Shown in pieces: positions 32,818 through 33,133 of a DNA stretch of 34,392 nucleotides (position 1 is the stretch's first letter; the number at the start of each line of letters is the position of its first letter). The position numbers were made by a program, and so were the translations under genes. The stretch is from Bacillota bacterium (GTDB lineage: Bacteria > Bacillota > Clostridia > Oscillospirales > Acutalibacteraceae): positions 1 to 34,392 of the forward strand of contig JAQXJH010000050.1 of assembly GCA_029008595.1 (NCBI GenBank), given 5' to 3'. Under the pieces are notes generated by a model. The model saw only the letters and a list, made by a program, of their open reading frames with translations. It did not search any database and was not told the DNA's origin.

Positions 32818-32856
32818 TGTTTGTTCCTCCGGTTTGTTTATTGATATGATAAGCCG

Positions 32857-32885
32857 ATTATACTATAATCGACCCAGGCTGTCGA
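32857..32885 (-). promoter_or_regulatory. outward promoter, left end of element, for the Fe-S protein gene
   Basis: On the - strand -35 TCGACA (32880-32885), a 17-bp spacer and -10 TATAAT (32857-32862). The predicted start near 32850 leaves a 33-base leader before ATG 32817. Confidence 0.75.
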
Positions 32886-33074
32886 AAAAGTCCGCTTTGG
32901 CGCCCCTTGTCAGGGGAGCTGTCTGCGCAGCAGACTGAGGGGTAGTCAGAAAAGGCTTTATTACAGCATTTTCTCTCCCTCCGTCACGGCTACCGTCTCG
33001 GTCGGTGCTGTTGCTTTGCAACGGTGTCCACCGGACACCCGCGCCCTCGTCAGAAGGAGGCAAAATACGGTTTA

Positions 33075-33103
33075 TCGACACTCTCAGCCGATTATACTAT
33101 AAT
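33075..33103 (+). promoter_or_regulatory. outward promoter, right end of element, for the Crp/Fnr gene
   Basis: -35 TCGACA (33075-33080), a 17-bp spacer and -10 TATAAT (33098-33103): the mirror image of the promoter at the left end. The predicted start is near 33110. Confidence 0.75.
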
Positions 33104-33117
33104 CGACCTGTCATATC

Positions 33118-33133
33118 TGTTGAAATTTCAACA
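33118..33133. promoter_or_regulatory. perfect palindrome, candidate Crp/Fnr operator
   Basis: TGTTGAAATTTCAACA is a perfect 16-base palindrome at about +8 to +23 of the predicted Crp/Fnr-gene transcript, just before its ribosome site. The TTGA...TCAA half-sites resemble Crp/Fnr-family operators, though with four bases between them instead of six. Autorepression is plausible. Confidence 0.5.

Follow-up and report, generated by a model that had tools for sequence, protein, structure and literature searches.

Evidence for insertion of an IS1182-type MITE at, and duplication of, a predicted symmetrical bidirectional promoter core between Fe-S protein and Crp/Fnr-type regulator genes

Overall structure of the insertion

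The window (the whole 34,392-nucleotide stretch analysed, from a bacterium of the Acutalibacteraceae) contains a divergent gene pair, encoding a 4Fe-4S ferredoxin-domain protein (here the Fe-S gene) and a Crp/Fnr-type regulator. We conclude with high confidence that an IS1182-type MITE has inserted at, and duplicated, the symmetrical core of a predicted bidirectional promoter between these two genes. The sequence features described in a first-pass annotation are present in the window, with the coordinates of the element in need of correction; of the two interpretations offered there, insertion into a palindromic promoter is retained and a portable promoter cassette is abandoned. The element, previously placed at 32843–33117 (275 bp), is 211 bp long when bounded by the direct repeat that flanks it (Table 1).

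The perfect dyad CGATTATA-C-TATAATCG, 17 bp long, is indeed directly repeated, at 32855 and 33089, with a spacing of 234 bp. Its centre is the exact middle of the perfect 23-bp direct repeat, the duplication extending 3 bp past the perfect dyad. These two repeat copies are the only 23-mers in the window with at least 8 central pairs, against a chance expectation of about 0.5. The ends, taken as imperfect inverted repeats, agree at 37 of 48 positions, in line with the first-pass annotation: 26 of the matches are in the 32 outer positions, which are target DNA, and 11 in the 16 positions inside the element. TCGACA-17-TATAAT sites point outward at both ends, each matching the consensus at 11 of 12 positions; in total, four promoter-like sites were found versus 0.5 expected from shuffles. 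In both hybrid sites, TCGACA is contributed by the element and TATAAT by the duplicated target, with the 17 bp in between.

Table 1. Coordinates of the insertion and its surroundings in the window.
Feature	Position	Strand	Basis
Mobile element, IS1182-type MITE, 211 bp, without transposase gene	32875..33085		Bounded by direct repeat; copies L002, L003 and L164 have the same body and right end, with other flanks
Left target duplication copy, AGCCGATTATACTATAATCGACC, 23 bp	32852..32874		Identical to right copy; single in empty site of relatives
Right target duplication copy, 23 bp	33086..33108		Dyad centred exactly
Left end, CAGGCTGTCGAAAAAGTCC, IS1182-type terminal repeat	32875..32893	+	18 of 19 positions match left end of complete G125 IS
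Right end, inward GAGAGTGTCGATAAAC, IS1182-type terminal repeat	33070..33085	-	TGTCGA core as in IS right ends
Hybrid promoter-like site towards Fe-S gene	32857..32885	-	Consensus match; predicted start near 32850
Hybrid promoter-like site towards Crp/Fnr gene	33075..33103	+	Consensus match; predicted start near 33110
Putative ancestral Crp/Fnr-gene promoter, TTGATA-17-TATAAT, now behind element	32841..32869	+	Collinear with TTGACT-17-TATACT of L099
Putative ancestral Fe-S-direction -10, TATAAT, now behind element	33091..33096	-	Geometry of 26 relatives
Probable Crp/Fnr operator, TGTTGAAATTTCAACA	33118..33133		At fixed spacing in relatives, perfect or nearly so
4Fe-4S ferredoxin-domain protein gene, 230 aa	32125..32817	-	Pfam Fer4, Fer4_7
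Crp/Fnr-type regulator gene, 219 aa	33147..33806	+	Pfam cNMP_binding, HTH_Crp_2

Empty site in related genomes

The proposal that the element is MITE-like and mobile was borne out when the genome and its relatives were searched, as both further copies and empty sites were found. Orthologues of the Crp/Fnr gene were collected across the family, the empty-site comparison being with other genera. In 18 relatives, the Fe-S and Crp/Fnr genes are directly adjacent and divergent; the gap between them is 84–115 bp and contains a single symmetrical -10 region. In 8 others, another gene is located in between and the distance from the Crp/Fnr gene to the Fe-S gene is about 1.1 kb. This intervening divergent gene is about 1 kb long (L100, L101, L103–L106, L112 and L113) and the promoter and operator geometry before it is unchanged; it may therefore be part of the regulated unit.

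When the element and one repeat are subtracted from the 329-bp gap in the window, 95 bp remain. Once rejoined, the site forms a near palindrome of 41 bp, with 17 of 20 pairs matching, and aligns with L099, of which the Crp/Fnr protein is 73 percent identical, from TTGATA (TTGACT in L099) through GATTATACTATA to TGTTGAAATTTCAACA. Insertion into one palindromic promoter with duplication of its 23-bp core, which had been put forward as the alternative reading, is strongly supported, and copying a palindrome whole is habitual in this transposon family. Sequence comparison shows the insertion, the duplicated target, the empty site of the relatives and this family habit.

Other copies and family membership

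Three copies of the element are present in this genome, including that of the window, and one in the Ruminococcaceae MAG RUG10806. The body of the L002 copy is 91 percent identical to the window copy and is flanked by a 37-bp direct repeat, GAACCGATACCCGGTAAGCTGAACCGGATATCGGTTT, a terminator-like hairpin that differs from the window repeat. The L003 copy is cut by a contig end; its right end adjoins the hairpin AAGTCCCCATCTGC-loop-GCAGATGGGGACTT. The copy in RUG10806 (L164) adjoins AAACGGTCAGC-loop-GCTGACCGTTT and its left end is degraded. Since the flanks of these three copies differ from those in the window, the -10 boxes lie outside the element. The right end of the element had no exact match in the viral contigs searched.

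An IS1182 transposase-encoding related element was found in relatives, with a complete IS in genome G125 present in eight copies. The encoded protein scores 400 bits against the NCBIfam IS1182 transposase model NF033551 (cut-off 270) and contains the domains DUF772 and DDE_Tnp_1_6. The right end of our element has TGTCGA in common with the IS right ends, matching at best at 17 of 22 positions, which is poorer than the left end. Exact duplications of 20–33 bp, each a hairpin, flank six of the eight identical G125 copies. The remaining two (L141 and L163) have unmatched flanking hairpins; the hairpin to the left of L163 also stands to the right of L141, suggesting that exchange or rearrangement has taken place between IS copies. 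With more distant copies added, the comparison covers 11 full-length IS1182-type elements in five genomes, each from a different genus. Their duplications are 19–33 bp long and all palindromic; ten are centred exactly on the dyad and the eleventh is half a base off. Palindrome insertion is seen at the window, L002, L003 and L164 and in 11 full-length IS copies, and short elements with related ends likewise duplicate or adjoin hairpins. At L079–L090 (genomes G401, G350 and G294), another set of short elements, with GGGTTTATCGACAGTCTGA or GGGTTTATCGACACACTGA at their ends, adjoins terminator-like hairpins at many loci; these are apparently further MITEs of the same kind.

The end matches and the palindromic duplications together identify our element as an IS1182-type MITE that copies palindromes whole. 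The rule for the family, as read from these copies, is insertion at a palindrome and duplication of the whole palindrome, and recognition of an extruded cruciform may be envisaged. Among the folded targets, the window hairpin is the weakest, at -4.2 kcal/mol versus -7 to -20 kcal/mol, and is not a terminator. An intact transposase with these ends was not found in this fragmented assembly (161 contigs), in which profile searches gave no matches to PF13751, a single match to PF05598, interrupted by an internal stop, and no close transposase.

The interior of the MITE (window 32897–33065) consists of GGCTCCCCTTGTNAGGGGAGCTGTC...GACTGAGGGG and ...CTCCCTCCGTC...CCTCGTCAGAGGGAGG, and is also found in many genomes across the family and the order, where it stands alone and lacks IS1182 ends (for instance at L004 1480–1615, L007, L011, L013, L014, L018 and L025). 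The MITE looks like a chimera, by sequence resemblance, of IS1182 ends and a dispersed palindromic repeat. An origin by internal deletion of the G125 IS was considered and rejected, as the interiors are unlike and that of the MITE resembles the independently occurring repeats.

Promoter and operator geometry

In the relatives, a single -10 region carries a -10-like sequence on each strand, with TGTTGAAATTTCAACA or a close variant nearby. The mean -10 match at fixed spacing in 26 relatives is 4.85 in the forward and 4.77 in the reverse direction. The forward match is highest where the palindrome is at +16.5 of the Crp/Fnr gene; that in the reverse direction is highest where it is at -41.5 of the divergent gene. 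The forward -35 starts with TTG in most relatives; in the reverse direction the operator is at -41.5 in most of the 26, with a -35 match of at most 3 out of 6. For Crp/Fnr regulators, -41.5 is the class II activator position, and a site at +16.5 fits autorepression. With its putative operator at about -41.5 and its poor -35, the Fe-S direction has the predicted geometry of class II Crp/Fnr activation.

Within 2 mismatches, TGTTGAAATTTCAACA has a sole match in this genome. The 17-bp dyad was also considered as Crp/Fnr operator and was dropped in favour of TGTTGAAATTTCAACA, which is conserved beside the single -10 in relatives. A second Crp/Fnr-type gene is present in the same genome (G000:C29:2245-2862, 44 percent identical). 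In the window, the operator stays centred at -41.5 from the start of the ancestral Fe-S-direction promoter and is now 234 bp farther from the near Fe-S start, at a predicted -275.5 versus -41.5 in the relatives.

Alternative explanations

Many insertion sequences form hybrid promoters via an outward -35. The element might similarly be a portable -35 donor, the TCGACA of its terminal repeats being kept for making hybrid promoters at landing sites, and in the window TCGACA is present in both ends at the correct distance. We consider this unlikely: a -10 is present beyond the end in only one of the copies seen, and TGTCGA is the conserved terminal-repeat core across IS1182-type elements that target terminators, so that transposase binding explains TCGACA.

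Ordinary recombination or an assembly artefact, in which the repeat would come from mis-joined repeated sequence and not from transposition, could be suspected from the 161 contigs of the assembly and from the element copy at a contig end. It is very improbable, given that the flanks on either side correspond to the gene pair conserved in the relatives, that about 9 percent divergence separates the window copy from L002 and that the repeat has the same form at other copies, including those in the two-contig genome G125.

Virtually no weight can be given to a portable divergent cassette, which would install a complete outward promoter from each end at any landing site and to which the outward TCGACA-17-TATAAT sites and the suitable distances to both downstream gene starts had pointed: the TATAAT boxes fall within the target duplication and are host DNA, present once in element-free relatives, and both other copies in the same genome (L002 and L003) adjoin terminator-like hairpins, lack a -10 at the matching distance beyond the element ends and have no outward promoter.

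Discussion

The palindrome-duplicating IS1182-type MITE described here is a variant within a known family, with an unusual target. Like IS1182-family insertion sequences and MITEs, it has terminal repeats with a CAGNCTGTCGA core; it differs from the insertion sequences in being without a transposase and in having an interior like independent repeats, not like the IS interior. The IS1182-linked MITEs of Methanosarcina (160–169 bp, ISMac2) are listed with direct repeats of either 0 or 4 bp (PMC3852290), whereas the window element duplicates a whole palindrome.

Palindromic targets are reported for some IS1182 members, as cited in PMC4923244 and PMC5678879. IS1272 and TnSha1 of the staphylococci, also of the IS1182 family, resemble our element in using inverted-repeat targets, often terminators, without a sequence consensus. 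For IS1272, the palindrome-targeting relative studied in detail, the stem-loop is deleted or replaced, with no duplication (PMC4923244, PMC5678879). Such replacement is not matched here, as the duplications are perfect: 23 and 37 bp long in this genome and 19–33 bp in relatives. They correspond instead, for the window element, to alternative pathway b of the model in PMC5678879, in which the stem-loop is duplicated through joining of its 5' feet to the 3' ends of the element. The literature found on IS1182 at terminators, stem-loops or other palindromes was essentially this staphylococcal work (PMC4923244, PMC5678879), to which broader searching added none.

The target, in which -10s on opposite strands stand one base apart in the space between divergent genes and a regulator site is found on one side, resembles the symmetrical -10 bidirectional promoters of PMC12825309 and of earlier work cited in that paper. 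It differs in that the common -10 has been doubled by a transposon, and transcription in both directions is predicted. In bidirectional promoters, polymerases compete once one direction is activated (PMC12825309), and doubling could therefore relieve competition.

We propose that a transposase supplied in trans moved the 211-bp non-autonomous element. The IS1182-type family inserts into dyad-symmetric DNA, usually terminator hairpins, leaving the whole palindrome as flanking direct repeats; here its target was the symmetrical -10 region of the putative Fe-S and Crp/Fnr bidirectional promoter. Each gene would keep its old promoter farther away, with transcription passing through the element, and would have gained a new near promoter, made up of the TCGACA of the element and a duplicated -10, so that one -10 would no longer be common to both. 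The near Fe-S promoter would escape the operator that is placed at -41.5 in the relatives. These regulatory consequences are predicted from the geometry of the sites.

Duplication of the whole palindrome, centred on its dyad, recurs in five genera, and in the published model it was an alternative pathway only. If a terminator is duplicated whole, the host gene would be spared, and this could be why such insertions persist. The window is a natural case of a transposon doubling a bidirectional promoter core, and such doubling is a simple way to uncouple two genes with a common -10 and operator. As a tentative generalisation, which we think somewhat less probable than its failure, this IS1182 branch may sense the structure, and not the sequence, of a palindrome and duplicate it whole; terminators would then be kept, and a bidirectional promoter that is hit would be split, with one gene freed from its regulator.
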